Shown: positions 54 to 38,956 of the stretch, piece by piece
How the letters are laid out: the number at the start of each line of letters is the position of its first letter
Position numbering within the stretch: the stretch's first letter is position 1
Assembly: GCA_022510465.1 (NCBI GenBank)
Contig: JAFLTJ010000014.1
Location: 1 to 42,130, forward strand
Length of the DNA: 42,130 bases
Source: Muribaculaceae bacterium
Lineage (GTDB): Bacteria > Bacteroidota > Bacteroidia > Bacteroidales > Muribaculaceae
Reading direction: 5' to 3'
Program-made: the position numbers and the translations under genes
Notes under the pieces: model-generated
Seen by the model: the letters and a program-made list of their open reading frames with translations, nothing else
The model's database searches: none
Told to the model about the DNA's origin: nothing

Positions 54-93
54 CTATCCGGGCTGACCCGTTACGCCGCGTCAGCCCGGATAG
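54..93 (-). terminator. Hairpin downstream of the leftward DUF5689/TonB operon (also REP-like)
   Basis: Perfect 14-bp inverted repeat ctatccgggctgac (54-67) / gtcagcccggatag (80-93) with 12-nt loop, directly after the TAA of the 826-aa ORF. No clear U-tract, so the terminator role is tentative. Confidence 0.5.
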
Positions 94-98
94 TGGTT

Positions 99-2579
99 TT
101 ATTGGAGGGTGTAGTTGGATGTTGGTGATTTAATTCCGCACACTCCGAAATACTTCTCAAGTTTACCTTCAACAGTTAGTTTCTTTCCCAGGTTGCCGGG
201 GTTATCCATCAGATTAATGGCTGAACGGATGGCCGTACCGGCGACGAGCTGTAGGGGTACGCACTTGTTGTAGTCGGTTTCGGTTGGACTATCGGCAAGG
301 AGCAGATTGGAGGCTCCGGTTGCAGGAGTAGTAAATGTGGCTCCGCTGCTGATAGAGGCTCCGTTGACCCATCCGACAATGTATCCGGTTACGTATTTTG
401 TTGTGCCTGGGTTGTTGAGAGCCAATACTTGGGCGACGGTGTAGGGCGCATCGGCCGTGCCGCCATTGTCGTCGGGCGTGGGCTCGGTTGTACCACCGCC
501 TTCGCCGGTTCCTTCGCCATCAAGCGTGTAGTTTCCGGTGGGCGATTTAACGCCGGGTACACCGAAGTATTTTTCAAGAGAACCTTCCAAGATGATTTCT
601 TTTCCAAGATTCTCAGGGTGGTTAACGAGGTTGACGGCATTACGTATATCGGTCTGAGCAACAAGCTGAACGGGCACGCATTTGGCAATGTTTGTTTCAC
701 CCGGGGTCTCGGCTATCAGGATGTTGGACTGGTTGGTCGCAGGGGTGGTAAAGTGAGCTCCGTCGTTAATTGACGCACCCTCAATCCATCCTACGATGTA
801 TCCCTTGACGTAACTTACCGTGCCGGGATTGTTGAGCGAAATGACCTGAGAAACGGTGTAGGGGTTATCCTTAGTTCCGCCGTCGATGGCCGGCGGGGTC
901 ACGGGGGTGTCGGGTGGAGTTGTACCGGCCCCGTCAAGGGTATAGTCATCGGTAGTCGACTTGACGCCGCAAACGCCGAAATATTTCTCCAATGAGCCTT
1001 GAATAACAAGTTTCTTGCCGAGGTTTTCGGGGTGGTCCATCAAATTGACGGCAGCACGAACAGCAGTTCCCGAAACAAGTTGAACGGCGACGCACCGTGT
1101 ATAGTTTGTTTCGTCGGAAGTCATGGCAATCAGCAAGTTAGATGCCGATGTCGACGGTACGCCAAAATGGGCGCCCTCGGCAATAGAGGCACCTTCAACC
1201 CAGCCCACGATGTAGCCTTGAACATAGGCTACGGTGCCCGGATTATTCATCTCCATAACTTGAGTTACGTTGTAGGGATTTGTTTTGGTTCCGTCACCGT
1301 CGGGTATTGTTCCGCCGCTAACTTCGACGCCATCTATTCTGAATTCGGAGGGCCCTCCGTTCTTGGTAGCTACGCCCCAGCTTCCGAGCTGTAAAGCGAG
1401 AGTTCCGTTGACCCAAATTTGCCGTTGATACAACTCGGGATGGGTTGCAAGCGCACCGTATTCGCGCAGAGCAGAGCCTTGTGGCAGCGGGAGTATCAAA
1501 CAATTGGCAATTGATTTAACTTCGGGCGTGGGTGCTATTACGAGCGTTGTAGGCATGTCGACTTCTTTGCCCCACTGAATATCGGCGTCGCCGCTGACAT
1601 TAGAGACTCCCGGCGCGACGGCACCGACGATATATCCGGTAACCCATCCGGCGGCCTCTTTTCCGTTCATTTCTATTTCAATGGCCTGGTCAACGGTATA
1701 AGGATTGGTTTCGGCTCCCGGACTCAAAGTGGGATTGCCAAAGTTCATGCAGTCATCGGCCGAGCGGAGCGTCAACTGCCAAGCGTTGTTGAAGTATCCA
1801 AGGATACCGACAACGTCACCGTTGCCTTCGGGAAGGGTATTGCTCCAGAAGTTGGCATATCCGCTGTTGCGCACGGTAATAATGGAGCCGTCTTCGAGCA
1901 CGAGGTCTCGATTGGCATTCTCCTTGTGGGCGTCGGTAAAACCGGCTTGGCCTCCGAGTGCAAAATGGCAATTGTTGAATCGAACGAGCTGGCTCTGCCA
2001 CTTTCGCAGAGACTCGGGCAATCCGCTCAGTTCGCTAAAGTTGGTGACGGTAATGGTGTCAACCTTAGATGGCTCGGGGAGCCCGTTGAGCTCGGAATGC
2101 TGCTCAAAGAATGCCAAAGGCATGAATGTTGCCTGCCAGCCATAGCTCTCGCTGTAATCGGGAAATCCCATTTGCTGGAGGCCGCTGTACTTTCCAATGT
2201 ACATTCCGGTGGCGTCAATGACAACTTCTTGCCCAACGCGATATTTGTTGAACATCGAGTTGGCGTTGATAGACAGGGTCAGCGCGCCGGTGTGGTCCTG
2301 AATAACCAGGTTTTTATATATATTGCCGGCGGCGTCGCTCGATATTACGCGGCCAGATATGATGACGTGCTCGTCGCTTCCGGCCACGGTTTCAATGGTG
2401 TCAATATAATTGGTGTTATCGCTCCAGTAGTCAGCTTTCAGCTGGGCAATGGTTGTATTTGGAGTCAGCGATGCAGCGGGCACCTTTACCGACGGGGTGT
2501 TGAAGTCATCCTGGCAGGATGAGGTCAGCGCCAACGCCGCGATGGCGAGCATGCCGAGAGTTGATTTTATAGCTTTCAT
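99..2579 (-). CDS. Lipoprotein with N-terminal DUF5689-like domain and four tandem OB-fold-like (DUF6359/YhcR-OBF-like) repeats
   Basis: ORF of 826 aa; signal peptide with lipobox LALTSSC; repeated motif NPYTVxQVxxLNNPGTxxYVxGYIVGW...LEKYFGVxGVKSPTxxYTL. Confidence 0.8.
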   Translation of the reverse strand: MKAIKSTLGMLAIAALALTSSCQDDFNTPSVKVPAASLTPNTTIAQLKADYWSDNTNYIDTIETVAGSDEHVIISGRVISSDAAGNIYKNLVIQDHTGALTLSINANSMFNKYRVGQEVVIDATGMYIGKYSGLQQMGFPDYSESYGWQATFMPLAFFEQHSELNGLPEPSKVDTITVTNFSELSGLPESLRKWQSQLVRFNNCHFALGGQAGFTDAHKENANRDLVLEDGSIITVRNSGYANFWSNTLPEGNGDVVGILGYFNNAWQLTLRSADDCMNFGNPTLSPGAETNPYTVDQAIEIEMNGKEAAGWVTGYIVGAVAPGVSNVSGDADIQWGKEVDMPTTLVIAPTPEVKSIANCLILPLPQGSALREYGALATHPELYQRQIWVNGTLALQLGSWGVATKNGGPSEFRIDGVEVSGGTIPDGDGTKTNPYNVTQVMEMNNPGTVAYVQGYIVGWVEGASIAEGAHFGVPSTSASNLLIAMTSDETNYTRCVAVQLVSGTAVRAAVNLMDHPENLGKKLVIQGSLEKYFGVCGVKSTTDDYTLDGAGTTPPDTPVTPPAIDGGTKDNPYTVSQVISLNNPGTVSYVKGYIVGWIEGASINDGAHFTTPATNQSNILIAETPGETNIAKCVPVQLVAQTDIRNAVNLVNHPENLGKEIILEGSLEKYFGVPGVKSPTGNYTLDGEGTGEGGGTTEPTPDDNGGTADAPYTVAQVLALNNPGTTKYVTGYIVGWVNGASISSGATFTTPATGASNLLLADSPTETDYNKCVPLQLVAGTAIRSAINLMDNPGNLGKKLTVEGKLEKYFGVCGIKSPTSNYTLQ

Positions 2580-2607
2580 ATTTGTGTTGTATAGATATGA
2601 TTTCTTG

Positions 2608-4362
2608 TTACTCGGTAATCTTCAGATTGCGTATTTCCCATGTGTCGGCCTCGGTTGGGGTGGCGACATACAAGAAACCAATCTCAATTTTCTTGCCTGC
2701 AAAGGCTGTAAGGTCGATGGCACCGGAGTTGACAAAGGTCCAGGCACCGGCCTCAGGCCATGTTGGAATTGTCAACTTTGTCCATTGGGTCTGACCGGTC
2801 TCGCGCACGGCGACACCGCAGGCCGAACGCAGGTTGGTCTGGAACTTGGCGGCATGGTCAAACGAGAGTTTTGCAGATGTTTTACCTTCGAGTGAAATTA
2901 CCGGTGAAACCGCCCATGTTTCAACATTGATGTTCATGCCGTAGGCGCTGGCATTGAGGTAATGCTTGCCGCTATATTCGGTCCACGACCAGACTGACTC
3001 GGTTGTACCGACGTTAATAGACCAGTCGATAGTGGCGTCGCTTTCGCCGAGCCCGCTGTAAATAGCCGCTGCAGTGTCACCGCCACCGGTAGTTCCTCCC
3101 GAGCCTTCCCCCTCAAGGGTGAAATCGTCGGTTGGCGTCTTCACACCCGGTACACCGAAGTATTTCTCGAGCGAGCCGGCCAAAGTCAGCTTTTTGCCGA
3201 GATTGGCGGGGTTGTTGACGAGGTTGACGGCGTTGCGGATAGCAGTGTCGTAAACGAGCTGAACGGGTACGCAATTGTTGACATTGGTTTCACCCGGCGT
3301 TGCAGCAAGGAGAACGTTGGAAGCGTTGGTGGCCGGCACGCTGAATTTGGCGCCTTCGGTTATCGAAGCACCGTCAATCCAGCCTACAATGTAACCGGTA
3401 ACGTAGGCAGGTGCGGCGGCCGAAGCTCCGTTGATGACGTCGGTAACCGAGAATGGATTGGCTTTTGACCCGTCGCCGGTTACTTCTCCAGGCAGTGAGG
3501 GTTCGGGAGCATCTACCCATTCAAAACCGACACATTCGGTATGCGGGTCGCTGAATACCAGCTGCCAGTTGCTGCCAAAGTAGCTCAAGATGGCGCGGAT
3601 TGTTCCGGTTCCGGTTGGAAGTACTGTGCCGGCAAATGTAGATTTGTTGCTTGTAGAGATATCAATCGTTTTGCCGTCTTTGTCTTTGAGCTGTGTAGTA
3701 GTGTAGTTGGCCGCAGCGGGGTCGCCGAAGCGGTCTTTACCGGCGTTTACAAACTCGACATTTTCGAGAGTGATGTAGCGCGTTTGCCATGCGCACATAT
3801 CGGCGGTGGTGTTTTTGTAGCTTTGCAAGTCGGCAATAGTAGTCAGGTAGGGGACCGCGTTGGCTTCAACGGGGAGCCCGTTGACCTGGGCGCGAGCCTG
3901 CATTTCGCTTAGGTCCATGCCTCCAACGCTTCCGTTGTATTCAACGCCAATCATCTGTAAACCGCGATATGTGCCGATAAGAAGGCCGGTAACATCGATG
4001 CGCAGTTCCTGCCCGTAATGATAGCTTGTGCTCAGGTCGGATGAGTAAACGCGAATTGTTATGGCCGATGTTTCATCCTGGATGATAACCCGCTGATACA
4101 CATTCCCGGCATTGTCGTCGGAAACAATGGTACCTCCGATGATTATATGCTTACCATCCTCGGTTGTACCGATAGTTGTCATATAGTCGCTGGCCGGGTT
4201 TTGCCAATAGCGCTCTTTGAGTTCAAGAATGGTTGTATTGACCTCGATGGTTGCTTCGGGGACAATTACCGGAGGCCGGTCAAAGTTGTCGTCACAACCG
4301 GTCAACGCTGCCGATGTAGCGATTGCCGCGGCGGCAAGCAGTGTCTTATATAGTTTCATCAT
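2608..4362 (-). CDS. Lipoprotein with DUF5689-like domain, one OB-fold-like repeat and a C-terminal choice-of-anchor J/cleaved-adhesin-like domain
   Basis: ORF of 584 aa; lipobox SAALTGC; N-terminus paralogous to the 826-aa ORF; one GYIVGWIDGASI...LEKYFGVPGVKTPT repeat; C-terminus WAVSPVISLEGKTSAKLSFDHA...IEIGFLYVATPTEADTWEIRNLKI. Confidence 0.75.
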   Translation of the reverse strand: MMKLYKTLLAAAAIATSAALTGCDDNFDRPPVIVPEATIEVNTTILELKERYWQNPASDYMTTIGTTEDGKHIIIGGTIVSDDNAGNVYQRVIIQDETSAITIRVYSSDLSTSYHYGQELRIDVTGLLIGTYRGLQMIGVEYNGSVGGMDLSEMQARAQVNGLPVEANAVPYLTTIADLQSYKNTTADMCAWQTRYITLENVEFVNAGKDRFGDPAAANYTTTQLKDKDGKTIDISTSNKSTFAGTVLPTGTGTIRAILSYFGSNWQLVFSDPHTECVGFEWVDAPEPSLPGEVTGDGSKANPFSVTDVINGASAAAPAYVTGYIVGWIDGASITEGAKFSVPATNASNVLLAATPGETNVNNCVPVQLVYDTAIRNAVNLVNNPANLGKKLTLAGSLEKYFGVPGVKTPTDDFTLEGEGSGGTTGGGDTAAAIYSGLGESDATIDWSINVGTTESVWSWTEYSGKHYLNASAYGMNINVETWAVSPVISLEGKTSAKLSFDHAAKFQTNLRSACGVAVRETGQTQWTKLTIPTWPEAGAWTFVNSGAIDLTAFAGKKIEIGFLYVATPTEADTWEIRNLKITE

Positions 4363-4385
4363 TTTTTATTTTTCCGAATTAATGA

Positions 4386-7145
4386 TTAAAATCTGACGCC
4401 AACGTTGAAGAATATCTTGATACCCTGCCCGTAAGTGTACTTGTTGGGGTATTTCATGGAGTCGTAGTTGGTGTAATCAAATCGACCTTGCTGATAACCG
4501 TAGGTCATAATGTTGCGGTTGTTGAGCACGTTGTCGATGTTCAAATTGAGGTTTAGCGAAACTTTTCGGTTGACGTATATAATCTTGCCGATGGAGATAT
4601 TTAACACAAAGGCATCGTTGAGCTTGTCTTGCGCTGCAAGTTCCTCCATTTTACTTTCGAGGGCTTCCAGGTCGGGATATTTTTCCCAAAGTTTAGGAAG
4701 AGCCTCGTGGCGTATCGGCGAAAGGTTAACGTATGAGTCACCCATGAAAGACCCGCTTATTCCAAAGAACCACATACCAGGAGCGGCCCAGTCGATTCCG
4801 ATAGTACCGGCCACCTGGGGTGTGCCACCAACGTAGAAGTTTTTCAGGTAAACGACCTGGGCGGTGTCGGGCATCATGCCGTTTTCGTAGGAACGAACGC
4901 CAACGGGCCGGTTTTTGTATTGGTAGCGGGAGTATGTTCCGGCGGCAGTAAGGGTTATTGACGGTGTAATCTTATAGGCCAAACCTATTTCAACGCCTTT
5001 ATGAGTCTTGTGTACTCCTTTGAGAACGTAGTTCATAAAGGTGGAATATTGGTCGTCATAGAAAGATGTACGCTCGGTTTGGTCGTAAAATTCGGTCCAG
5101 AAAGCCGAAACAGAGCCGCGGAAACGGCGGTAGTTCCAGATGTAGGCGATGTCGCCGGCGAGAACGCGCTCGGCCTGCAGGCCGTCAATGGCGGTGTCTT
5201 TGATGCGCGGCGAAATGTAGGCATATTCAAAGAGGGGTGCACGTGTTTCATACTGGCCGTGAATCTGAATGAAATTGCGGCCGTTTATTTTGTATGTGGT
5301 GCCGGCTTTGATTGCACCGGTGTCAAAACGGTGGGTCTCCCCCTTGCCGTAAGAGTTTTCGGGCGCGCGGCCGTTCATCATCTTTCCGTCGCGGTAGAAT
5401 TGTGTGTAGCCTAATTTCAGACCGTAGTTGATATCCCATCGAGGCAGCGTGATTATATTCTGAATCCATGCAGTTGCCTGAATGGCGTTGATGTAGTAAT
5501 TGTATCCGAAGATGTCGTCTACACCCACTTTACGGTTTGGATTGAGCAGGTTGTTCTGCATCATGTCGGGATTGTCGGGGAAATCACGTTCGGAATACTG
5601 GTCAACGTCAAGCCAGTATTCGCCCCCGAGGAGGTCGCGAATGGTCTTGTAGTAGTGAGCCCGAGTGAAATTGGCCGTTACGCCGGCTTGAAGGGTCATG
5701 TAATCGTTCAGACGATGATTGAGGGTGGAGTTGAGAATCATGTTGAACTGGTTGCTGTGGCGGTTTTCCAGGATGTAGCTTGAACCGTGTTCGGTTGCTC
5801 CTGTTTCGGCCCCTCCGGCGCTGTTAAGCATGTTTGTGGCATATATCTGTTCCCAGTTAATCTGACGGAAGCTTTCGGTGCCCCAAAGGGATGAATAAAG
5901 GTCGTAGGCCTCCTGATTGTCTTTATAATAGGAGGGGAGGTAGCGATAATAGTCGGGTCGGGGGTCGGGGGTGTTGTACCAATTGAGGGCGCTTGTAGAA
6001 TAGTTGACGCCCCGGATGGCCAGACCGGTGTTGAGTGTTGTGTTTGAGCCCGACTTGAAAATCCAGTTTAGGATAGCTGTTGGGTCGAATGTTTCAACAA
6101 TTTTGGCCGAACGTTTTTTCCCGTCTTGATATCCCCAATTGGGGTTGTACAGATTTGTTCCTGCGAGCTCGTATGCCTCAAGGTAGGTTGACGATGCTGT
6201 AGCGCGTTGGGTCGGTGCGCCAAAGAGGGTCAGATTCAAAGAGTGCTTATTGTTGAGTATCTTTTGGATAGACATGAATAAACCTCCTGAATTGTAGAAT
6301 GTGCCTTCAATGACCCCCTCGGGAGCATACCGACCGACGGCCGACACGGTGAAAGCCCATCCGCTGGAAGTCAGGCCGGTAGAATAGGTGGCCATAGCGC
6401 GGAGCATGTAGTTGCTGTTGGTATAGGCAACGCTTCCGTTGAAGCCTTTTGCGTAGGATGTCGACAGGGTGTTGATGTCGGTCACGCCGCCAACATCGCC
6501 AAGACCGAATGTAGATGCTCCGAGGCCGATGGCGGTTGTTTTATCGCGGAACGCACGGCTCATACCGCCAAGGGTGGAGTAGTTGAAACGCCCACGGGCG
6601 AGGTCGTTGAAATTGACTCCGTTGATGTAGGTTGTCTGGTATTCATTGTTGTACCCGCGGTAGCGGAAATACATTGCGTTGAAATCGTAGGATGTCGCTT
6701 TATAATAGATGTCGTCGTTGGCCCCTGTTAAAGCTCCGATAGACTGGGCGTTGCTCTCCTCCTCGTCAAGCAGGCTTTCGTCATAATATATTTCCTGGAG
6801 GTCTTCCATAAAGCCTTGAGCGGCGTCGGCGCTTTGCAGCCGTATTGTTCCGGCGTCAAGATAGCTGCCGGGAAGAATGTCGACCGTCATTGAAGCGTCG
6901 TTGTACCCGTAGGCGACAACAACCAATACATCTTCGCCGGGGTCGGCCGTGAGCCGGAACTCACCGGAAGGGTCGGTGGTTACAGAGAGTCCTTTGCCAT
7001 CCAGTATCACACTGGCACCGGCAATAGGGCTTCCGGTAGAGGCATCAATAATCTTGCCAGCTACTCCTGCCTGTTGTGCATGCGTTGGCAACGCCACCGC
7101 CAGCATCATCAGCAGAAATAGGAACAGAAACAGTCTTAGTCTCAT
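4386..7145 (-). CDS. TonB-dependent outer-membrane receptor with carboxypeptidase-like regulatory domain
   Basis: 919 aa; signal peptide; N-terminal GKIIDASTGSPIAGASVILDGKGLSVTTDPSGEFRL; plug-like segment; C-terminal beta-barrel strands ending ...GIKIFFNVGVRF. Confidence 0.85.
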   Translation of the reverse strand: MRLRLFLFLFLLMMLAVALPTHAQQAGVAGKIIDASTGSPIAGASVILDGKGLSVTTDPSGEFRLTADPGEDVLVVVAYGYNDASMTVDILPGSYLDAGTIRLQSADAAQGFMEDLQEIYYDESLLDEEESNAQSIGALTGANDDIYYKATSYDFNAMYFRYRGYNNEYQTTYINGVNFNDLARGRFNYSTLGGMSRAFRDKTTAIGLGASTFGLGDVGGVTDINTLSTSYAKGFNGSVAYTNSNYMLRAMATYSTGLTSSGWAFTVSAVGRYAPEGVIEGTFYNSGGLFMSIQKILNNKHSLNLTLFGAPTQRATASSTYLEAYELAGTNLYNPNWGYQDGKKRSAKIVETFDPTAILNWIFKSGSNTTLNTGLAIRGVNYSTSALNWYNTPDPRPDYYRYLPSYYKDNQEAYDLYSSLWGTESFRQINWEQIYATNMLNSAGGAETGATEHGSSYILENRHSNQFNMILNSTLNHRLNDYMTLQAGVTANFTRAHYYKTIRDLLGGEYWLDVDQYSERDFPDNPDMMQNNLLNPNRKVGVDDIFGYNYYINAIQATAWIQNIITLPRWDINYGLKLGYTQFYRDGKMMNGRAPENSYGKGETHRFDTGAIKAGTTYKINGRNFIQIHGQYETRAPLFEYAYISPRIKDTAIDGLQAERVLAGDIAYIWNYRRFRGSVSAFWTEFYDQTERTSFYDDQYSTFMNYVLKGVHKTHKGVEIGLAYKITPSITLTAAGTYSRYQYKNRPVGVRSYENGMMPDTAQVVYLKNFYVGGTPQVAGTIGIDWAAPGMWFFGISGSFMGDSYVNLSPIRHEALPKLWEKYPDLEALESKMEELAAQDKLNDAFVLNISIGKIIYVNRKVSLNLNLNIDNVLNNRNIMTYGYQQGRFDYTNYDSMKYPNKYTYGQGIKIFFNVGVRF

Positions 7146-7206
7146 AAATTGAATATTGTTTTATAGTTATTATTTCATGCAAAAACGATTGGTGGAGATA
7201 TTCGGC

Positions 7207-8274
7207 TTATTTTCGGGCTACGCGCAGGAATACCTCGGTTGGGAAGTGGTCGGAATATCCATTGAGCCACACTCCGCCCGAATATGTTCTCAGCGGGTAT
7301 CCCTGGCGTGTTCCCTGCTTGTCATAAAGGAAGTCAAAGTTGTTTACTTTTGCTCTCCAATATTGTAGGTCGTATGGCGTGCCTTGATTGCTTTCCAGCA
7401 GGGTGCCTGAGATTATAATCTGGTCGAACAGGTTCCAGGAGCCTTTGTAGGCCAATGTTCCGATGCCGTCGTCAAGCATTTTCCACCAGGGGTTGTAGAA
7501 TCCGTGGGGTTCAACTTTTTCGGGGGAACGCTTGGCGCCGAGGACAACGGCACACGATTTGTCTTGCGGGTCGTCGTTCAAGTCGCCCATGATGATGACG
7601 CCCTGGTCGGGCCGTATGGCCCAAAGGGAGTCGGCGATATGCTTGGATAGCGCCGCTGCCGCTTCGCGCAGATAGGATGATTGTTCCTGCCCGCCAAGTC
7701 TTGATGGCCAGTGGTTTACAATTACACTTACGACTTTTCCACCCATCTCGCCGGTTACACACATCTGGTCGCGGGTTCGGAAAGTGGGGTTACCTTCAAT
7801 CGTAAGAGTGTGGTTTGTGACGTCAAGCACCTTGAACAATCGGGGGTTATAGAGTAATCCGACGTCAACCCCTCGACGGTCGGGTGAATCGTGATGCACA
7901 ATCTGTAATCGCCAGTTTTTGATTGGGTCGGCTTTCACGAGGTCTTGCAAAACGGTGATATTCTCTATTTCGGAAACGCCGATGACGGCGGGGCCGCCGG
8001 GCGTTGTCTTGCCGGTCATCTGGGAGATGCAGTAGGCAAGATTGTTGATTTTAGACCAATATTTGTGCCCGTTCCACTGGCGTGAGCCGGCCGGAGAAAA
8101 TTCCAGGTCGTATTTTCCATTGTTGTTGATGGTGTCAAACAGATTTTCAAGATTGTAAAAAGCAACGCCATATACCATGTATTGCTTTTTGGTCTCGGCA
8201 GTGTTTTTATTTTGAGCAGCAGCTGTCATAATGACGGCGAGCGCCATTAATGGTAGAAGAAAATAACGTTTCAT
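7207..8274 (-). CDS. Secreted endonuclease/exonuclease/phosphatase (EEP) family protein
   Basis: 355 aa; signal peptide; EEP motifs YNLENLFDT, SEIEN, NHWPSR, MGDLNDDP, SDHFP. Confidence 0.88.
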   Translation of the reverse strand: MKRYFLLPLMALAVIMTAAAQNKNTAETKKQYMVYGVAFYNLENLFDTINNNGKYDLEFSPAGSRQWNGHKYWSKINNLAYCISQMTGKTTPGGPAVIGVSEIENITVLQDLVKADPIKNWRLQIVHHDSPDRRGVDVGLLYNPRLFKVLDVTNHTLTIEGNPTFRTRDQMCVTGEMGGKVVSVIVNHWPSRLGGQEQSSYLREAAAALSKHIADSLWAIRPDQGVIIMGDLNDDPQDKSCAVVLGAKRSPEKVEPHGFYNPWWKMLDDGIGTLAYKGSWNLFDQIIISGTLLESNQGTPYDLQYWRAKVNNFDFLYDKQGTRQGYPLRTYSGGVWLNGYSDHFPTEVFLRVARK

Positions 8275-17352: not shown

Positions 17353-19047
17353 ATGTTAGATTTCAAACGAACTGCCTTATCCGTTTTGGTTGCAACGGTG
17401 TCGCTGGCGCCGGTGGTAGCAGCCACAAACGATTCGGTGTCAAAGACATGGGTTGCCGACTTGGGCAATGGAAAATACAAAAATCCTATATTGTATGCTG
17501 ACTATTCAGACCCGGATGTGGTGCGTGTAGGGGATGACTACTACATGACGGCGTCAAGTTTCTGCGATATACCCGGATTGCCTATCCTGCATTCAAAAGA
17601 TTTGGTCAATTGGGAAATTATCGGTCATGCAATAGCCTCGATGCCATCATACGCGCAATTCGCGCCTGACCCCAGTCATGGAAATGCGGTTTGGGCTCCC
17701 TCTATCCGCTATCACGAGGGTGAGTTTTACATCTACTACGGAGACCCCGATTTGGGTATCTTTATGACTAAGACAAAGAATCCGGCAGGGCCGTGGGAGC
17801 CGTTGGTTCATGTTCACAAGGCAAAAGGGATTATCGACACCTGCCCATTCTGGGATGAGGATGGTAAGGCTTACATTGCTCACGGTTATGCCGGAAGCCG
17901 CGCGGGCGTAAAGAGTATTATCGGAATGATAGAAATGACTCTTGACGGAAAGTCGACAATCGGCCCCGACCGCGTGATTTATGACGGTCATATCGAAAAC
18001 GAAACAATTGAAGGCGCCAAAATGTACAAGCGTGGTGACTGGTATTATATCTTCTCGCCCGCCGGCGGTGTTGCTACCGGTTGGCAGGAAGTGCTTCGTT
18101 CAAAGAGCCCGTGGGGGCCTTACGAGGTTCGTAACGTCATGGACCAGGGTAACACGAATATCAACGGTCCTCATCAGGGCGCATGGATTGATACGCCCGA
18201 CGGAAAAGAGGATTGGTTTATACATTTCCAGGATAAAGGCCCGTATGGTCGCGTGGTTCTGCTTGAGCCAATGAAGTGGAACGAGGATGGATGGCCCGTG
18301 ATAGGCGTTGACAAGGATGGAAACGGTCGGGGCGAGCCGGTGACTACCTACACCAAGCCGGCAGTCGGCAAGACTTATCCGGTGATGACTCCGGCTGAGA
18401 GTGACGAGTTTGATGCCGTGACGCTTGGATTGCAATGGCAATGGAAAGGGAATCCAAATGCGCTGTGGTATATCGCCGATGCAAATGCTTCTCAATTGCG
18501 ACTTTTCTCTCATTGTACTCCGGGAGCCGAGCGCATATACGATATGCCCAACCTTATGCTTCAAAAATTCCCTGCCGAGGATTTTACGGCGACTGCCAAG
18601 GTGCAGTTCTGCCCTCGCAAGAATAATGGCAGGGTTATGACGGGCGAACGTGCAGGCCTGGTTGTAATGGGCTACAACTATGGCGGCCTGGTGTTTGAAA
18701 GCCGTGCCGATGGCCTGTATCTTACCGATGTGCAGGGTCTTAAGGCCAACAAGGGTGGCAAAGAAACCGTTGGAGCCGGCGTGAAAGTGCCCGATGACGG
18801 TAATCTGTACCTGCGAGTGTCGGTTAAGCGTGTAGGGGTGAAAAATCCGAAGGAAAAACCCGATTACAAATGTGAGGCTACTTTCTCCTACAGCCTTGAC
18901 GGAAAGAAATATACCGAGCTTGGTGGCAAACTTAGCGTAACCGAAGGCCATTGGATTGGCGCAAAAGTTGGTCTCTTCTGTTCCCGCGATTGGGAAAGCA
19001 ACGACTCGGGATGGTTGAACGTAGATTGGTTTAGAGTAACAAAATGA
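17353..19047 (+). CDS. Glycoside hydrolase family 43 (beta-xylosidase/arabinosidase-like), C-terminal beta-sandwich
   Basis: 564 aa; signal peptide; NPILYADYSDPDVVRVGDDYYMTASSF, GLPILHSKDLVNWEIIGHA, VWAPSIRYHEGEFYIYYGD, ENETIEGAKMYKRGDWYYIFSPAGG. Confidence 0.93.
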   Translation: MLDFKRTALSVLVATVSLAPVVAATNDSVSKTWVADLGNGKYKNPILYADYSDPDVVRVGDDYYMTASSFCDIPGLPILHSKDLVNWEIIGHAIASMPSYAQFAPDPSHGNAVWAPSIRYHEGEFYIYYGDPDLGIFMTKTKNPAGPWEPLVHVHKAKGIIDTCPFWDEDGKAYIAHGYAGSRAGVKSIIGMIEMTLDGKSTIGPDRVIYDGHIENETIEGAKMYKRGDWYYIFSPAGGVATGWQEVLRSKSPWGPYEVRNVMDQGNTNINGPHQGAWIDTPDGKEDWFIHFQDKGPYGRVVLLEPMKWNEDGWPVIGVDKDGNGRGEPVTTYTKPAVGKTYPVMTPAESDEFDAVTLGLQWQWKGNPNALWYIADANASQLRLFSHCTPGAERIYDMPNLMLQKFPAEDFTATAKVQFCPRKNNGRVMTGERAGLVVMGYNYGGLVFESRADGLYLTDVQGLKANKGGKETVGAGVKVPDDGNLYLRVSVKRVGVKNPKEKPDYKCEATFSYSLDGKKYTELGGKLSVTEGHWIGAKVGLFCSRDWESNDSGWLNVDWFRVTK

Positions 19048-20006
19048 AAAAGATACTTACAATATTGTCGCTTGTGTTGATGCTCGGCACGACTGCGGTT
19101 GGTAATGCAGCCGAGTACAAGCGCAACATAACCGTGGCTCAGGATGGGTCGGGCGACTATAAAACGATTACCGAGGCCCTGGAGGGTATACGTGCTTTTA
19201 TGGACTACACCGTTACGGTAAATATCAAAAACGGAGTGTACCGCGAAAAAGTTGTCGTTCCGGCCTGGCTTGAAAATGTTGAATTTATAGGCGAAAGTGT
19301 CGAGAAAACTATTATTACCTGGAACGACCACGCCAACATCAACAAGATGGGAACTTTCCGCACGTACACTCTTAAAGTTGACGGAACCGACCTCGTTTTT
19401 CGTAACCTGACAATTGAGAACAACGCCGAGCAGCTTGGTCAGGCCGTAGCGCTCCACACTGAGGGTGACCGGCTGACATTCATAAACTGCCGTTTCCTTG
19501 GCAACCAAGACACAATCTATACCGGCGGCAAGCGCACACGCCTTTATTTCTCCAACTGCTATGTAGAGGGGACTACCGATTTTATCTTCGGTCCGGCAAC
19601 GGCGCTGTTTGAGAACTGCGAGATTCGCAGTAAGCGCGATAGCTTTGTCACGGCAGCTTCGACTCCCGAGGATGTTCCCGTGGGTTATGTGTTCTACAAT
19701 TGCCGATTGACAGCCGACGCGGGTGTGACGAAGGTTTACCTTGGCCGGCCGTGGAGACCGTATGCCCATACGGTCTTTATCGACTGTGAAATGGGTGAAC
19801 ATATCACGGCTGCCGGATGGGAAAACTGGCGTAATCCGGAGAACGAAAAAACGGCTCGATATGGCGAGATTGGCAGTACCGGTCCAGGTGCCGCGCAGGA
19901 TGGGCGCGTAAAGTGGGCACGTAGTATCTCGCGAGCCGAAGCGGCGGCGCTTCTTGATTACAACTACATTTTCACCACTGCCGACAGTTGGATTCCGGTA
20001 AAGTAA
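19044..20006 (+). CDS. Pectinesterase (CE8)
   Basis: 320 aa; signal peptide; AVALHTEGDRLTFINCRFLGNQDTIYTG; YVEGTTDFIFGPATALFENCEI; YLGRPWRPYAHTVFIDCEM. ATGA overlap with the GH43 stop. Confidence 0.95.
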   Translation: MKKILTILSLVLMLGTTAVGNAAEYKRNITVAQDGSGDYKTITEALEGIRAFMDYTVTVNIKNGVYREKVVVPAWLENVEFIGESVEKTIITWNDHANINKMGTFRTYTLKVDGTDLVFRNLTIENNAEQLGQAVALHTEGDRLTFINCRFLGNQDTIYTGGKRTRLYFSNCYVEGTTDFIFGPATALFENCEIRSKRDSFVTAASTPEDVPVGYVFYNCRLTADAGVTKVYLGRPWRPYAHTVFIDCEMGEHITAAGWENWRNPENEKTARYGEIGSTGPGAAQDGRVKWARSISRAEAAALLDYNYIFTTADSWIPVK

Positions 20007-20065
20007 ATACAAATTAGATAATAAATAATTTCCATAAAATACTAATAATAAAATACATACAAAAA

Positions 20066-21547
20066 ATGAAAGTCTTAAACAGCAAGACTGCACCTAAAGC
20101 AGTCGCTCCCGAGAGAATTATTCAGTTTGGTGAAGGAAACTTCCTTCGTGCGTTTGTTGACTGGATTGTAAAGAACATGAACGACAAGACCGATTTTAAC
20201 TCGTCGGTTGTTGTTCTTCAGGGTATCGAGGATGATTTTGTAATGCAGCTCCTCATCGGTCAGGATTGCATGTATCACGTAAACCTCCAGGGCCGTCTCA
20301 ATGGCGAAATCGTTAACTCATTTACTCGTGTTGACTCTATCAGCCGCGGAGTAAACCCGTTCAAGCAGTTTGACTCATTCTTGGCGCTTGCAGCTCAACC
20401 CGAGATGCGTTTCATTATCTCTAACACAACCGAGGCCGGTATTACATTCAATCCCGAGTGTAAGCTTAACGACCGCCCCGCTTCGGCTTATCCTGCCAAG
20501 CTGACCCAATTGCTGTGGCATCGCTTCAAGACTTTCAACGGTTGCCCGACGAAAGGCTTCATCATCATGCCTTGCGAGCTTATCTTTGAGAACGGCCACC
20601 ACTTGAAAGACTGTGTAAACAAGTACATCGACCTTTGGAAAGAAGACTTTGGCGGCGAATATGAGGCATTTAAGAAATGGTTCAACGAGTACAACTATGT
20701 TTGCGCAACGTTGGTTGACCGTATCGTGCCCGGCTTCCCCCGCAAGGAAATCAACGATATTCAGGCCAAGCTGAACTACAAGGACAACATCGTTGTTCAG
20801 GGTGAGGCTTTCCATGTATGGGTAATCGAGCGCCCCTCAAACATGTCAATAGAGGAACTTGCAGCCGAATTCCCCGCTGAAAAGGCCGGTTTGAACGTTA
20901 TTATTACCGACAGCGAGGCTCCCTATCATGAAAGAAAGGTGACTCTGTTGAACGGTCCTCACACCGTATTGTCGCCCGTCAGCTATCTGAGCGGTGTAGA
21001 CATTGTTCGTGATGCCTGCAACCACCCGGTTCTCGGCAAATATATCCGTAAGGTGCAGTTTGAGGAGTTGATGCAGACTCTGAATCTGCCGATGAACGAG
21101 CTTGAAGAGTATGGTGAAAGCGTGCTCGAGCGTTTCAACAACCCGTTTGTTGACCACCAGGTTACCTCTATCATGCTCAACTCGTTCCCCAAATATCAGA
21201 CTCGTGACCTCCCCGGCGTGAAGACTTATCTCGAGCGTAAGGGCGAGCTGCCTAAGGGTCTTGTTCTTGGTTTGGCTGCAATCATCACTTACTACAAGGG
21301 TGGTAAGCGTGCCGACGGCGCCGACATCGTGCCCAACGACGACGCAGCTATCATGCAGCTGTTGACCGACCTTTGGGCAACCGGCGACACCCGCAAGGTT
21401 GCAGAAGGCGTTCTCGCTGCCGACAAACTTATTTGGAAGGACCACGGTAACCTCAACGAAATCCCCGGCTTGACCGACCTCGTTGTTGAGTATCTTGACG
21501 CCATCCAAAAGAACGGTATGCTTGCAACTGTTGAATCTATTCTCTAA
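20066..21547 (+). CDS. uxaB: Tagaturonate reductase (altronate oxidoreductase)
   Basis: 493 aa; IIQFGEGNFLRAFVDWIV; ISNTTEAGI; KVTLLNGPHTVLSPVSYLSG; mannitol dehydrogenase superfamily. Confidence 0.93.
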   Translation: MKVLNSKTAPKAVAPERIIQFGEGNFLRAFVDWIVKNMNDKTDFNSSVVVLQGIEDDFVMQLLIGQDCMYHVNLQGRLNGEIVNSFTRVDSISRGVNPFKQFDSFLALAAQPEMRFIISNTTEAGITFNPECKLNDRPASAYPAKLTQLLWHRFKTFNGCPTKGFIIMPCELIFENGHHLKDCVNKYIDLWKEDFGGEYEAFKKWFNEYNYVCATLVDRIVPGFPRKEINDIQAKLNYKDNIVVQGEAFHVWVIERPSNMSIEELAAEFPAEKAGLNVIITDSEAPYHERKVTLLNGPHTVLSPVSYLSGVDIVRDACNHPVLGKYIRKVQFEELMQTLNLPMNELEEYGESVLERFNNPFVDHQVTSIMLNSFPKYQTRDLPGVKTYLERKGELPKGLVLGLAAIITYYKGGKRADGADIVPNDDAAIMQLLTDLWATGDTRKVAEGVLAADKLIWKDHGNLNEIPGLTDLVVEYLDAIQKNGMLATVESIL

Positions 21548-21568
21548 TCTATTGAAACCCTTTTCTAA

Positions 21569-23074
21569 ATGAAGGAATATCTGAAAATTAACCCCGCCGA
21601 CAATGTTGCCGTAGCCATCACTCCACTGAGCAAGGGCACTGTGATTACTGTTGACGGTAATGATATTACCCTCGTCAGCGACATTCCCGCAGGTCACAAA
21701 GTGGCCTTGCGGGACATCGCCGAGGGGGAGAATGTGATTAAGTATGGTTTTCCTATCGGTCACACGCTCCATCCGGTAGCCAAGGGTGCATTCCTTGACC
21801 ACAATGACATCAAGACTAACCTTGCAGGTCAGTTGGACTACAGCGACATCAAGATTTCGGGTGAAAACTGTTGCAGCGTGTATCCTGAGGTAAAGCCGCT
21901 GACATTTGAAGGTTATGAGCGTAAGGATGGCCAGGTTGGTATCCGTAACGAGATTTGGGTAATCCCAACCGTTGGCTGTGTTAACGGTATCGTTAAGCAG
22001 ATTGTTGACCGCCTGAATGCCGAGACCGGCGCCGAGGGTGTTGACGGTATCTTCGGATTCCCTCACAACTACGGTTGTTCTCAGCTTGGTGATGACCACG
22101 AGAATACCAAAAAGATACTTCGCGACATGGTGCATCATCCCAATGCAGGAGGTGTGCTTGTTGTTGGGCTCGGTTGCGAGAACAATCAGCCTGCCGTGTT
22201 CAAAGAGTTCTGCGGCGACTATGATACGGAGCGAGTTCGCTTCATGGTTTGCCAGGAGGTAGAGGGCGACGAGGTTGAATATGGACTTGAGATTGCCCGC
22301 GAGCTTTACAAACAGGCTTGTACTTATAAGCGCACAACACAGCCGGCATCCAAACTGAGAATCGGTCTCAAATGTGGTGGCAGCGACGGTTTCTCGGGCA
22401 TTACGGCCAATCCGCTCCTTGGCGAATTCAGCGATTTCCTTTGCTGCTCGCAGGGTGGTACGACCGTTCTGACAGAGGTGCCGGAAATGTTTGGCGCCGA
22501 AACAATCCTCATGGAACGTTGTATCGACAATGATAAACTTGGCGAGACTATCTCGTTGATTAATAACTTCAAACAGTACTTCCTCAGCCACGGCGAGCCT
22601 GTAGGCGAGAACCCCTCACCCGGAAACAAGGCAGGCGGTATCTCGACTCTCGAGGAGAAAGCACTCGGTTGCACTCAGAAGTCGGGCAAGAGTCCGGTTT
22701 ATGGCGTGATGGAGTATGGCGAACGCATCAGCCACAACGGATTGAACCTATTGTCGGCTCCCGGCAACGACCTTGTAGCATCAACCGCATTGGCCTCGGC
22801 CGGATGTCAGATGGTGCTCTTTACAACCGGCCGCGGGACCCCGTTCGGAACTTACGTGCCTACCGTAAAGGTGTCGACCAACAGTAATCTGGCCCGTCGC
22901 AAACCGACCTGGATTGACTTTAACGCAGGAGTCTTGGTTGAAGATGAGGCTATGGACAGCGTTCTTCGTCGTTTTGTAGACTATATCCTTGAAGTTGCCA
23001 GCGGCCGTCAGGTGAACTCTGAAATTGCCGGTATTCACGAAATTTCAATCTTTAAGAACGGCGTAACACTTTAA
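21569..23074 (+). CDS. uxaA: Altronate dehydratase
   Basis: 501 aa; N-terminal SAF-like segment; EGYERKDGQVGIRNEIWVIPTVGCVN; FPHNYGCSQLGDDH; GLKCGGSDGFSGITANPLLG. Confidence 0.95.
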   Translation: MKEYLKINPADNVAVAITPLSKGTVITVDGNDITLVSDIPAGHKVALRDIAEGENVIKYGFPIGHTLHPVAKGAFLDHNDIKTNLAGQLDYSDIKISGENCCSVYPEVKPLTFEGYERKDGQVGIRNEIWVIPTVGCVNGIVKQIVDRLNAETGAEGVDGIFGFPHNYGCSQLGDDHENTKKILRDMVHHPNAGGVLVVGLGCENNQPAVFKEFCGDYDTERVRFMVCQEVEGDEVEYGLEIARELYKQACTYKRTTQPASKLRIGLKCGGSDGFSGITANPLLGEFSDFLCCSQGGTTVLTEVPEMFGAETILMERCIDNDKLGETISLINNFKQYFLSHGEPVGENPSPGNKAGGISTLEEKALGCTQKSGKSPVYGVMEYGERISHNGLNLLSAPGNDLVASTALASAGCQMVLFTTGRGTPFGTYVPTVKVSTNSNLARRKPTWIDFNAGVLVEDEAMDSVLRRFVDYILEVASGRQVNSEIAGIHEISIFKNGVTL

Positions 23075-23100
23075 ATACTAACCATAAAAAACATAGAATA

Positions 23101-24516
23101 ATGAAGCCATTCATGGATAAAGACTTTCTGTTGCTGACTCCTACCGCACAGAAGTTATATCACGAGCATGCGGCAAAAATGCCCATCATAGACTATCACT
23201 GCCACTTGATTCCCAAGATGGTAGCTGATGACCATCGTTTCAAATCAATTACAGAAATCTGGCTCGGCGGAGACCACTACAAGTGGCGCGCAATGCGTTC
23301 AAACGGTGTTGAAGAGCGTTTCTGTACCGGTACTGATACGTCTGACTGGGAAAAATTCCAGAAATGGGCTGAAACAGTACCCTATACGTTCCGTAATCCT
23401 TTGTATCACTGGACCCATCTTGAGTTGAAGACGGCTTTCGGTATCGACAAGCTTCTCAATCCCGAGACTGCACGTGAAATATTCGAGGAGTGTAACGACA
23501 AGTTGCAGAACGACCCCAATATGACGGCTCGCGGGTTGATGCGTCGCTACAATGTTGAAACAGTATGTACTACCGATGACCCTGTTGACTCGCTGGAATA
23601 CCACAAGGCTGTTCGCGATAGCGGTTTTGAAATCAAGATGCTCCCCACATGGCGCCCCGATAAGGCTATGGCTGTTGAAGTGCCTGCCGAATTCCGTGCC
23701 TACGTTGAGAAGCTGGCCGAGGTTTCGGGCGTGGAAATCAACAAGTTTGACGATATGATTGACGCACTTCAGAAGCGCCACGATTTCTTTGAGGAGATGG
23801 GTTGTCGCCTGAGTGACCATGGTATTGAGGAGTTCTATGCAGCCGATTATACCGACGCCGAGGTGCGCGATATCTTCAACAAGGTATATGGCGGCAAGGA
23901 ATTGACTGCCGATGAGATTCTGAAATTCAAGAGCGCTATGCTCGTGATTTTCGGCGAGATGGACTATGCAACCGGGTGGACACAGCAGTTCCACTATGGA
24001 GCTATCCGTAACAACAACTCAAAGATGTTCAAGCTTCTCGGTGCCGACACCGGTTTTGACTCAATCGGCGAGTTTACCACGGCTAAATCATGTGCCAAGT
24101 TCCTTGACACGCTCAACAGCCGCGGCAAGCTGACAAAGACTATTCTTTACAACCTCAACCCGTGTGCCAATGAGGTAATGGCAACCATGCTCGGTAACTT
24201 CCAGGATGGCTCTATCGCCGGCAAGATTCAATTTGGCTCGGGATGGTGGTTCCTGGATCAGAAAGACGGCATGCAGAAGCAGATGAACGCGCTGTCGTTG
24301 TTGGGTCTGCTGAGCCGCTTTGTTGGTATGTTGACCGACTCTCGCTCGTTCCTGTCATATCCGCGTCATGAGTATTTCCGCCGTACGTTGTGTAACCTCG
24401 TTGGTACCGACGTTGAGAACGGTGAAATTCCCTACACCGGCTATGAAGAAGCTCGCGTGAATCAGATGATTGAGGATATCTGCTATAATAATGCTAAAAA
24501 TTACTTCAAATTTTAA
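23101..24516 (+). CDS. uxaC: Glucuronate/galacturonate isomerase
   Basis: 471 aa; FMDKDFLLLTPTAQKLYHEHAAKMPIIDYHCHL; TGWTQQFHYGAIRNNNSKMFKLLGADTGFDSIG. Confidence 0.96.
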   Translation: MKPFMDKDFLLLTPTAQKLYHEHAAKMPIIDYHCHLIPKMVADDHRFKSITEIWLGGDHYKWRAMRSNGVEERFCTGTDTSDWEKFQKWAETVPYTFRNPLYHWTHLELKTAFGIDKLLNPETAREIFEECNDKLQNDPNMTARGLMRRYNVETVCTTDDPVDSLEYHKAVRDSGFEIKMLPTWRPDKAMAVEVPAEFRAYVEKLAEVSGVEINKFDDMIDALQKRHDFFEEMGCRLSDHGIEEFYAADYTDAEVRDIFNKVYGGKELTADEILKFKSAMLVIFGEMDYATGWTQQFHYGAIRNNNSKMFKLLGADTGFDSIGEFTTAKSCAKFLDTLNSRGKLTKTILYNLNPCANEVMATMLGNFQDGSIAGKIQFGSGWWFLDQKDGMQKQMNALSLLGLLSRFVGMLTDSRSFLSYPRHEYFRRTLCNLVGTDVENGEIPYTGYEEARVNQMIEDICYNNAKNYFKF

Positions 24517-24522
24517 GCGATT

Positions 24523-26019
24523 ATGGCAGCACAATCACCTTTACAGGCAGCAAATGCCAAGATGACCAACTTCCGTTGGACTATCTGTCTGTTGCTTTTC
24601 TTGGCAACAACTGTCAACTATATGGACCGTCAGGTTCTGTCGTTGACGTGGAAAGAGTTTATCTCGCCCGAGTTTCACTGGACTGACTCAGACTATGGAA
24701 CAATTACGGCAATTTTCTCTATAATTTATGCTATCGCCAACCTTTTTGCAGGTCGCTTTATCGACTGGATGGGCACCAAGAAAGGTTATCTGTGGGCAAT
24801 CTTCGTTTGGAGTGCGGGCGCGTGCTTGCATGCAGCTTGCGGATGGGCTACCGAGCACACTGTAGGCGTTCATGACTCTCAGGCATTGCTCCAGGCTACC
24901 GGCGACGTGGCTTTAGCCATTGCAACCGTGTCGGTTTACTTCTTTATTGCCGCCCGTACTATCCTGGCGCTCGGCGAGGCCGGTAATTTCCCGGCAGCAA
25001 TTAAGGTAACGGCCGAATATTTCCCCAAGCGCGACCGTGCGTTTGCTACGGCAATCTTCAACGCCGGCTCGGCTGTCGGAGCGTTAGTAGCACCGTTCAC
25101 CATCGGCCCGCTTGCCAAGTATTTCCAAAATATTGGTGTTGGTAACGGATGGGAAATGGCGTTTATCGTAATCGGTGCTCTCGGCTTTATCTGGATGGGC
25201 TTCTGGGTATTCCTCTATAAGGAGCCGTCAAAGAATAAATTTGTCAATGCTGCCGAGTTGGCTTATATCAACCAGGATAACGACGAGGAAGAAGCGGCCG
25301 AGAAAAAAGCAGCTGAACCTCAGGAGGCAACGATTCCATTCCTGGAGGTATTCAAATTTCCGCAGACATGGGCTGTGTTTTTCGGTAAGTTCCTGACCGA
25401 CGGCGTTTGGTGGTTCTTCCTGTTCTGGACACCGGCTTATATCAAGGATGTGTTTGGGCTCTCAACCTCCGAGGGTGAGGGTATGTGGATGATTTTCGTT
25501 CTCTATGCCATTACGATGCTCTCGATTTATGGCGGAAAGCTCCCGGCAATCTTTATAGACAGCGCGGCCAAGCGCGGCGTTAAGGTGGATGCCTACGGAG
25601 CGCGTATGAAAGCGATGTTTATCTTTGCTCTCTTCCCATTGCTTGCACTCGCTGCACAGCCTATGAGCGCTTATTCACAGTGGTGGCCGATTATCATTAT
25701 CGGTATTGCCGGGGCGGCGCACCAGTCGTGGAGTGCCAATATATACTCGGTTGTTGGTGATATGTTCCCAAAGAGTACTATTGCTACCATTATTGGTATC
25801 GGTGGTATGGCCGGTGGTATCGGTTCGTTCCTGATTAACAAGGGTTCGGGCGTTTTGTTCGACTATGCCGACAAGACAAATATGGTCTTCATGGGCTTTG
25901 AGGGCAAACCTTCGGGTTATTTCATTGTCTTCTGTATCTGTGGAGTTGCCTACCTCGTTGGCTGGACAATAATGAAAGTTCTTGTTCCCCGTTACAAGAA
26001 AATCGAATATAAAGGCTAA
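24523..26019 (+). CDS. MFS transporter, hexuronate (ExuT/DgoT-like)
   Basis: 498 aa; VNYMDRQVLSLTWKEF; RTILALGEAGNFPAAIKVTAEYFPKRDRAFATAIFNAGSAVGA; 6 bp downstream of uxaC. Confidence 0.9.
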   Translation: MAAQSPLQAANAKMTNFRWTICLLLFLATTVNYMDRQVLSLTWKEFISPEFHWTDSDYGTITAIFSIIYAIANLFAGRFIDWMGTKKGYLWAIFVWSAGACLHAACGWATEHTVGVHDSQALLQATGDVALAIATVSVYFFIAARTILALGEAGNFPAAIKVTAEYFPKRDRAFATAIFNAGSAVGALVAPFTIGPLAKYFQNIGVGNGWEMAFIVIGALGFIWMGFWVFLYKEPSKNKFVNAAELAYINQDNDEEEAAEKKAAEPQEATIPFLEVFKFPQTWAVFFGKFLTDGVWWFFLFWTPAYIKDVFGLSTSEGEGMWMIFVLYAITMLSIYGGKLPAIFIDSAAKRGVKVDAYGARMKAMFIFALFPLLALAAQPMSAYSQWWPIIIIGIAGAAHQSWSANIYSVVGDMFPKSTIATIIGIGGMAGGIGSFLINKGSGVLFDYADKTNMVFMGFEGKPSGYFIVFCICGVAYLVGWTIMKVLVPRYKKIEYKG

Positions 26020-33297: not shown

Positions 33298-35496
33298 ATG
33301 AATTTCTACAGTAAATCTTTTGCATTCACTGCATTAGGCGTAGCATCAATGCTGCTGGCGTCGTGTAACGAGGATGTTTTAGAAGGAGGGAATACCGGCG
33401 AGGCTTACGATGGCCCGGTTGTGTATATCTCTGCAGGAATTTCGTTGCCGTCGACCGGGACTCGTAGCGCAACTGACGACCCGGATGGCACAGATGGCGG
33501 AAAGACGAACTCGGATGCCACTCCGGACTATGAAATCGGTTATGAGTATGAGAACGACATCCGCTCGATGATTCTTCTCATCGCTACACCGCAGGATGAA
33601 GAGACCCCCGAAAATGGTAATAAGTACATTGCCCACACAATAGTATCGGGTATTACCAAGGCTCCGACAAGCATGAGTGATGAATTCCAGTTTACGGTAA
33701 CCGGAGCAATCAAGCATGCCGATCTTCAGGCTGCATACGAAGATGAGGATTTGTTGAAAACAGCGCAGAAGGTTAATATCTATGCGTTCTGTAACTACAC
33801 TGATGATTTGCTTACAAAGATTAACGCGTTGGAACAGGGCTCTAATGAGTGGACCGACTTTGACGGAGAGGTTGTAGAGACAGCATCGGGTCTGGGTCAT
33901 GCTCCGATTGCCAACACTATCTGGGCAAAGCGTTCGTTCCTGATGTCGAATGCCGAGGTGGTAGAGTTTGAGTTCCCCACTGACCTTGACGGCTGGGATG
34001 ATTATGCCGACAGCAGCACGCCGTTGGAATTGACCTCGAAGCCTATCAAGGTGGAGCGTGCAGCCGCCCGTATCGACTTCCGTGACGGTAGTAAGGATTT
34101 GGATAGTAACAATCCCGGAAATACCTATCACTTGACGGTGCAGGATGAAGAAGGTGCACAGACGACTCACAATCTGTTTGACATCCAGTTGACTCGCATG
34201 TCGCTTGTTAACATGAGCAAGAAGTATTATGTATTGCGTCGCGTAGCTCCCGGAACTGAGAGTGATGGTGATGTTGCCGATGATTCAAAGAAGATTTTCC
34301 TTGGAAAAGAGAAGCCGGGATACTTTGTTGTTGACACAGACTGGAATGAAAAACTTGTGACCGGACCGAATGATGCTCTTAAGGCGATGGATTTGGACAA
34401 GGCTGAGAAGAATTTCAACTTCCCGGTATTTACAAAACCGGCAGCTGACGCAGCAGACCGCGACAAGCATTTGGATTTGGTTGACAATGATGTAAGCTAT
34501 ACCTACAATCGCGCCGGCTGGTACACCGACAATATCAAGGAGATTCTTGATAACGGTGAACAGGATACATGGAGCGATACTCCGGGTCGGTACAAAATAT
34601 GGCGCTATGTGACCGAGAATACACTTCCGTCGGTAAGAAGCCAGAAGAATGTACAGAGCACGGGTGTTGTGTTCAAGGGTTCAATCAAGCCCGGTAGCGC
34701 GATTGACTTGAAGTACACCAACAAGGGGTCGAAAGAAGACCACACCGAGCGTTATGTAACGGTTGAGGTAGAGAAGGCACTTCGTGTTGCCGCCGCACAC
34801 ATTGAGCCGGGAACAAACCTTGCCGACAAGGGTATTAAGCTGGCTGACGAAACACCTGTAACAGATGCAGAATGGCAGTATCCGACGCTCTATATGTTCC
34901 AGAACATACTTTATGCATCGGTTGACGACGTGGTTAGATATGCAGTTCTTGAGGGAACGAACAGCCCGCTGTATGAATCGACCGAGCGCGTTCTGAAAGA
35001 ATGGAAATATGATGAGACAACAAAGACCTACAAGCTTAACGGCAATGGCTCGGATGTGCTTACGGTAGCGAAGTATAACGATATCCTCACGGGTGAAGAC
35101 GAAGAGTCGAAGGTAGACTTCCGCGAGGAGGGTACTGAAAGTGTAGCGGCAGAGGCATTCCGCCTTGCAGCCCCCAAAGAGGGCTTCACCGTTTATCGCG
35201 CATCTAACGAAGAGGATGGCGAAGGCTGGGGTTACTATTGCTATTACTTCTACTGGAACCGTCACAACGACAATGGTCGCAACGGTCAGATGGGCGTAAT
35301 GGAGTTTGCTACGGTTCGTAACAACGTTTACAAGCTTGCAGTAACAGCCGTTGGTCAGCTTGGCCACCCGCGCTTCCCGGGTTATGATCCCGAACCACCG
35401 ACACCTAACACTGATGACGAGGTAGAAACTCGCTACATCCAGGTTAAGGTAGACGTACTTCCATGGGTTGTTCGCGTGAACAATATTACATTTTAA
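33298..35496 (+). CDS. Mfa1-type major fimbrial subunit (fimbrillin lipoprotein)
   Basis: 732 aa; lipobox SMLLASC; TGTR at residues 53-56; C-terminus RYIQVKVDVLPWVVRVNNITF. Confidence 0.8.
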   Translation: MNFYSKSFAFTALGVASMLLASCNEDVLEGGNTGEAYDGPVVYISAGISLPSTGTRSATDDPDGTDGGKTNSDATPDYEIGYEYENDIRSMILLIATPQDEETPENGNKYIAHTIVSGITKAPTSMSDEFQFTVTGAIKHADLQAAYEDEDLLKTAQKVNIYAFCNYTDDLLTKINALEQGSNEWTDFDGEVVETASGLGHAPIANTIWAKRSFLMSNAEVVEFEFPTDLDGWDDYADSSTPLELTSKPIKVERAAARIDFRDGSKDLDSNNPGNTYHLTVQDEEGAQTTHNLFDIQLTRMSLVNMSKKYYVLRRVAPGTESDGDVADDSKKIFLGKEKPGYFVVDTDWNEKLVTGPNDALKAMDLDKAEKNFNFPVFTKPAADAADRDKHLDLVDNDVSYTYNRAGWYTDNIKEILDNGEQDTWSDTPGRYKIWRYVTENTLPSVRSQKNVQSTGVVFKGSIKPGSAIDLKYTNKGSKEDHTERYVTVEVEKALRVAAAHIEPGTNLADKGIKLADETPVTDAEWQYPTLYMFQNILYASVDDVVRYAVLEGTNSPLYESTERVLKEWKYDETTKTYKLNGNGSDVLTVAKYNDILTGEDEESKVDFREEGTESVAAEAFRLAAPKEGFTVYRASNEEDGEGWGYYCYYFYWNRHNDNGRNGQMGVMEFATVRNNVYKLAVTAVGQLGHPRFPGYDPEPPTPNTDDEVETRYIQVKVDVLPWVVRVNNITF

Positions 35497-35526
35497 TTGA
35501 CTATTAAATCACGCTAAAATATAGAG

Positions 35527-36708: not shown

Positions 36709-36746
36709 AAAACGAAAATCAATTAACGAAACATTAAGTAAACGAT

Positions 36747-38939: not shown

Positions 38940-38956
38940 TGAGTTGAATAGCAGTT

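Follow-up and report, generated by a model that had tools for sequence, protein, structure and literature searches.

A four-gene operon in the window, by which is meant the whole 42,130-nucleotide stretch of Muribaculaceae DNA that was analysed, very probably represents, in Bacteroidales, an outer-membrane DNA-uptake module that was discovered only recently. The operon encodes a secreted or periplasmic nuclease-type enzyme with the EEP fold, a TonB-dependent receptor (TBDR) and two surface-type lipoproteins, and we consider it fairly probable that it serves as the outer-membrane DNA-uptake module of a natural transformation system of the Bacteroidota type. In such a system the lipoproteins, with their tandem OB folds, would bind extracellular DNA at the surface, the receptor would draw on TonB energy to carry the DNA past the outer membrane, and the EEP-fold enzyme, located either periplasmically or on the cell exterior, would cut or degrade it to yield the substrate of ComEC. 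The TBDR and the DUF5689 lipoprotein have been shown to be required for transformation in Riemerella anatipestifer only; from the genes of the Muribaculaceae organism we infer the same role there, with lipoproteins that would bind DNA, a passage driven by TonB and a processing step by the EEP enzyme.

All four genes lie on the minus strand. The first encodes the EEP enzyme (7207..8274; PF19580, Pfam E 4e-108), a candidate DNA-processing nuclease, and is followed by the TBDR (4386..7145), which has an N-terminal CarboxypepD_reg domain and is identified by homology as an orthologue of R. anatipestifer RA0C_RS04915. Downstream are two homologues of RA0C_RS04920: lipoprotein 2 (2608..4362), composed of DUF5689 (predicted tandem OB), DUF6359 (OB-like) and choice-of-anchor J modules, and lipoprotein 1 (99..2579), composed of DUF5689 and four DUF6359 repeats. 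The successive gaps are 61, 23 and 28 bp, so that the ORF coordinates bear out the first-pass annotation, which had described four same-strand genes with this spacing. Its division of the lipoproteins into DUF5689- and DUF6359-type modules agrees with the Pfam and NCBIfam matches, and its description of a TonB receptor without a SusD-type partner also stands, none of the four proteins having a SusD family match in Pfam or NCBIfam. The operon is flanked by rlmN and the contig end. The terminal hairpin that had been noted is present as an inverted repeat 3' of the last gene (54..93; arms 54-70 and 77-93, 94% complementary, 6-nt loop), but its arms are slightly longer than the reported 14 bp, at 17 nt. 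Since no U-run (T-run) follows it on the minus strand, a classical intrinsic terminator was ruled out; the repeat is possibly a transcription end or an mRNA-stabilising hairpin.

Two outer-membrane-type proteins, to which no functions were assigned, emerged as essential from a transposon screen of natural transformation in R. anatipestifer (PMC8459023). Markerless deletion of either RA0C_RS04915 or RA0C_RS04920 reduced transformation from 5e-5 to below 4e-10; RS04915 was annotated as a CarboxypepD_reg outer-membrane protein with homologues reported in Flavobacteriaceae only, and RS04920 as a protein with DUF5689 and DUF5017/choice-of-anchor J, while RS04910, the gene upstream, is mentioned only for its measured transcription, with no transposon insertion reported in it (PMC8459023). 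The same paper was the only one returned for DUF5689 in the literature. The R. anatipestifer locus was located by the exact ATCC 11845 comEC qPCR primer (PMC8383284), which matched 2/323 family genomes, in a single genus. Genome G998 (a 2,164,087-bp contig) has exact matches to both primers of the ATCC 11845 comEC pair and of the dprA pair, the two genes being some 54 kb apart. The locus reads RecA, four genes, ComEC, two genes, EEP(-), TBDR(+) and DUF5689(+), in agreement with the tags RS04870, RS04895, RS04910, RS04915 and RS04920. The Pfam content of the TBDR and lipoprotein encoded there agrees with the published annotation of RS04915 and RS04920, and the EEP gene beside the TBDR corresponds to RS04910. 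The search for RS02645, a helix-hairpin-helix protein, at the position estimated for it in R. anatipestifer was negative.

The window TBDR shares 28% identity with its G998 counterpart over 942 aa (E 2e-100) and the EEP enzyme 32% over 404 aa (E 2e-62), while lipoproteins 1 and 2 both match the single DUF5689 lipoprotein, at 28% over 281 aa (E 2e-23) and 28% over 276 aa (E 6e-16) respectively. The counterparts are best in both directions and each is the sole counterpart among the ORFs of the fetched region, although identities of only 28-32% count against the DNA-uptake reading. As in RS04910-RS04915-RS04920, a CarboxypepD_reg TBDR is followed directly by a lipoprotein with DUF5689 and choice-of-anchor J (lipoprotein 2, 23 bp from the TBDR), and a PF19580 EEP gene lies beside the TBDR. 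However, the EEP gene is divergent in R. anatipestifer and the co-directional first gene in the window, which also encodes a pair of lipoproteins instead of one, and additional DUF6359 modules. A further difference, which counts against the DNA-uptake reading, is that recA and comEC neighbour the R. anatipestifer locus, whereas the comEC of the window's genome is on another contig (C18) than the operon (C10). In most relatives comEC is not within 10 kb, so that its adjacency does not define the wider family; as a general rule it was rejected, having been seen only in the two genomes with the R. anatipestifer comEC primer. R. anatipestifer tonBA and tonBB mutants transform less, the tonBB effect being ascribed by the authors to iron (PMC8383284). 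Two further points count against DNA uptake: Flavobacterium johnsoniae has homologues yet showed no transformation under the conditions tried (PMC7965970), and no report of transformation in Muribaculaceae was found in the open-licence literature.

The distribution of the genes was tallied by hand in 59 Bacteroidales genomes from 58 families, with a TBDR orthologue defined by E below 1e-80 and a strong DUF5689 match by E below 1e-30. A TBDR orthologue is present in 29/59 genomes, and strong DUF5689 matches were found in all 29 of these vs none of the 30 others; in 27 of the 29 a same-strand DUF5689 gene directly follows the TBDR, the remaining two having the genes on separate contigs. The PF19580 EEP gene adjoins the TBDR in 20/29, mostly head-to-head, and is co-directional with it in the window, G052 and G008. 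For the 80 named Bacteroidales loci, the counts are 27 with the EEP gene upstream and divergent, 11 with it upstream and co-directional and 9 with it downstream and co-directional, the remaining loci being truncated or having no EEP gene. Across the class Bacteroidia, DUF5689 is found at the TBDR in 19/20 loci and a divergent adjacent EEP gene in 15/20, with two more carrying the EEP gene a few kb downstream, and the EEP-TBDR pair recurs without exception in 11 further Flavobacteriales loci, of which ten come from one family (f73). The linkage of EEP, TBDR and DUF5689 thus exceeds chance and, as three arrangements keep the EEP gene at the TBDR, it persists through rearrangements. These counts answer the question of co-occurrence raised by the first-pass annotation. 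Its idea of nucleic-acid capture and uptake holds, with the secreted EEP enzyme, the TonB receptor and the OB-fold lipoproteins inherited together.

In both lipoproteins acidic residues come after a lipobox (LTSSC-QDD in lipoprotein 1, SAALTGC-DD in lipoprotein 2), an arrangement that is shared by 93% of 90 relatives and that we take to resemble the Bacteroidetes surface-lipoprotein export signal. In lipoprotein 1 Pfam recognises DUF6359 in four stretches (E 4e-120) and DUF5689 (E 8e-53); the number of DUF6359 units ranges from one to four among Muribaculaceae loci, as though a binder at the surface were lengthening. Searching the PDB by sequence, with one protein or with an alignment as query, returned no informative match to the lipoproteins. 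An AlphaFold2 model of lipoprotein 2 (62 relatives, pLDDT 88.5) consists of consecutive small beta-barrels, for which the best PDB matches in Foldseek include HIN-200 dsDNA-binding domains (p204, IFI16, AIM2-type) and the telomere single-strand-binding proteins Teb1, Oxytricha TEBP and CST/POT1, with E values for these HIN-200 and telomere-end-binding tandem OB proteins of 5e-6 to 1e-3. The model supports a tandem OB fold of DNA-binding type for DUF5689, in keeping with the earlier description of OB-repeat lipoproteins. Whole-query TM-scores are low (0.13-0.19), with target-normalised values of up to 0.44 for HIN domains, which limits the claim to fold type rather than detailed similarity. Both lipoproteins are acidic (pI 4.5), which counts against the DNA-uptake reading. 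Separately, DUF5689 (PF18942) exceeds its cut-off in the Bacillus subtilis control genome; the match presumably sits in the YhcR nuclease and would tie the module to a nuclease from outside the Bacteroidota.

The receptor model (pLDDT 86.4) has as its best PDB folds in Foldseek the TonB receptors Fiu, PqqU/YncD and FecA (E about 1e-29 to 1e-26). There is a single strong orthologue per genome, the next-best receptor in the window's own genome being far weaker (E 1e-36), and the nearest named relatives are from Muribaculaceae, at 60-75% identity.

The EEP enzyme begins with a Sec-type signal, MKRYFLLPLMALAVIMTAAAQ, without a lipobox. The profile match and the catalytic residues N41, E104, H188, D231, N233, D284, D342 and H343, kept in 98-100% of 96 relatives, place it in PF19580 (Exo_endo_phos_3, EEP superfamily), in keeping with the EEP motifs and signal peptide previously described for the first gene. 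By the curated cut-off it is not a member of the ExeM/NucH family (NF033681), with a score of 18.2 bits vs a cut-off of 300. In extracellular nucleases of the ExeM/NucH type an EEP-type nuclease is likewise associated with OB-like modules; the window differs in having these parts as separate proteins, with a TonB receptor as partner.

Strand degradation to single-stranded DNA in R. anatipestifer was left to "an unidentified protein" (PMC8459023), and Streptococcus pneumoniae, in which the ComEC beta-lactamase domain is inactive, uses EndA (PMC12455585). ComEC is encoded in the window's genome, and the HxHxDH/HxDxDH nuclease motif occurs in 0/43 Bacteroidia ComECs, those of the window's genome and of R. 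anatipestifer included; nor was a ComEC nuclease domain found with Pfam in the two ComECs tested. The lack of the motif in all 43 makes a separate nuclease plausible, as with EndA, which resembles the EEP enzyme in the proposed role, strand degradation that the inactive ComEC domain does not perform. The folds of EndA and EEP are unrelated. Given its conserved catalytic residues and ComECs without the motif, the EEP protein is a good candidate for the strand-degrading or entry nuclease. Motif loss was rejected as a correlate of the operon, which it does not track (motif in 0/20 with and 0/20 without), and ComEC presence was uninformative as a phylogenetic marker, 188/192 genomes having the gene. 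Some of the sampled Bacteroidia ComECs are truncated, at about 500-600 aa.

The assignment of the EEP enzyme to DNA processing has a rival that we regard as somewhat unlikely but still serious, namely that it is a co-located housekeeping phosphodiesterase, acting for example on lipid or inositol phosphates, and that the DNA-uptake machine consists of the TBDR and lipoproteins only. PF19580 is spread more widely than the TBDR (56/59 Bacteroidales genomes, often in two copies, vs 29/59), and in 9/29 genomes the EEP gene is not beside the TBDR, two of these being at contig ends. Against this, the gene is attached to the TBDR in three arrangements, is the sole PF19580 copy in the window's genome, and adjoins the transformation genes of R. 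anatipestifer.

An improbable alternative for the operon as a whole is nutrient scavenging, in which the same parts would capture DNA or RNA, the EEP enzyme would cut it and the oligonucleotides would be imported as a source of P, N or nucleobases, transformation being a by-product or a lineage-specific use. The same list of parts fits this, and the predicted TBDR fold resembles small-solute importers. In addition, F. johnsoniae has phosphate-starvation-induced TonB receptors with lipoproteins, among which the low-phosphate-induced Fjoh_3841, a possible orthologue, is annotated with only pf13620, like the window receptor family (PMC8115612). However, the homologous genes are essential in R. 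anatipestifer for transformation, a process scored with intact marker DNA (PMC8459023), and no phosphatase, nucleosidase or inner-membrane transporter is encoded inside the operon, with only rlmN and the contig end at its sides. The dedicated scavenging system is not supported as first proposed, DNA uptake for natural transformation being the best-supported role in view of the transformation phenotype of the homologues, the only experimental data found on them.

A reading of the operon as SusCD-like or as an adhesin system, its ligand being a glycan or a protein and its OB-like and choice-of-anchor J modules binding glycans, is very improbable: the choice-of-anchor J part of lipoprotein 2 does match jelly-roll, MAM and gingipain adhesin domains in Foldseek and a gene cluster for pectin utilisation is found 9 kb away, but the operon has neither a SusD partner nor a glycoside hydrolase, its nuclease-type partner is conserved and its homologues have a transformation phenotype (PMC8459023). 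SusC/SusD importers and BtuB-BtuG-like TBDR/lipoprotein pairs are alike in combining a TonB receptor with a co-encoded surface lipoprotein; the window differs in its OB-fold lipoproteins and nuclease-type enzyme, with no lipoprotein of the SusD family.

The DNA-uptake reading bears on how Bacteroidota carry DNA across the outer membrane. It extends the reach of the module from Flavobacteriaceae to the whole class Bacteroidia, gut Muribaculaceae included, gives DUF5689 a predicted fold of DNA-binding type and names the EEP enzyme as a specific candidate nuclease. No earlier mention of a linked nuclease-type enzyme in the DNA-uptake module was found in the open-licence literature, and later work may exist elsewhere. 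More tentatively, and with rather less confidence than for the operon itself, transforming DNA may enter throughout the Bacteroidia, gut Bacteroidales included, by way of a TonB-powered receptor and OB-fold lipoproteins rather than a type IV pilus, the linked EEP enzyme being the missing nuclease that replaces the ComEC activity. If the reading is true, the locus marks gut and environmental Bacteroidota possibly able to take up DNA, with relevance to the spread of resistance genes and to genetic tools for recalcitrant strains.

Elsewhere in the window, the pectin/galacturonate utilisation cluster (17353-26019, plus strand) comprises genes for GH43, pectinesterase, a mannitol-dehydrogenase-family (tagaturonate reductase-like) protein, altronate dehydratase, UxaC and an MFS transporter. 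A protein with a fimbrillin C-terminal domain is encoded at 33298-35496 (plus strand) and is followed by several large same-strand ORFs, the whole (33298-40903) being a possible fimbrial operon.
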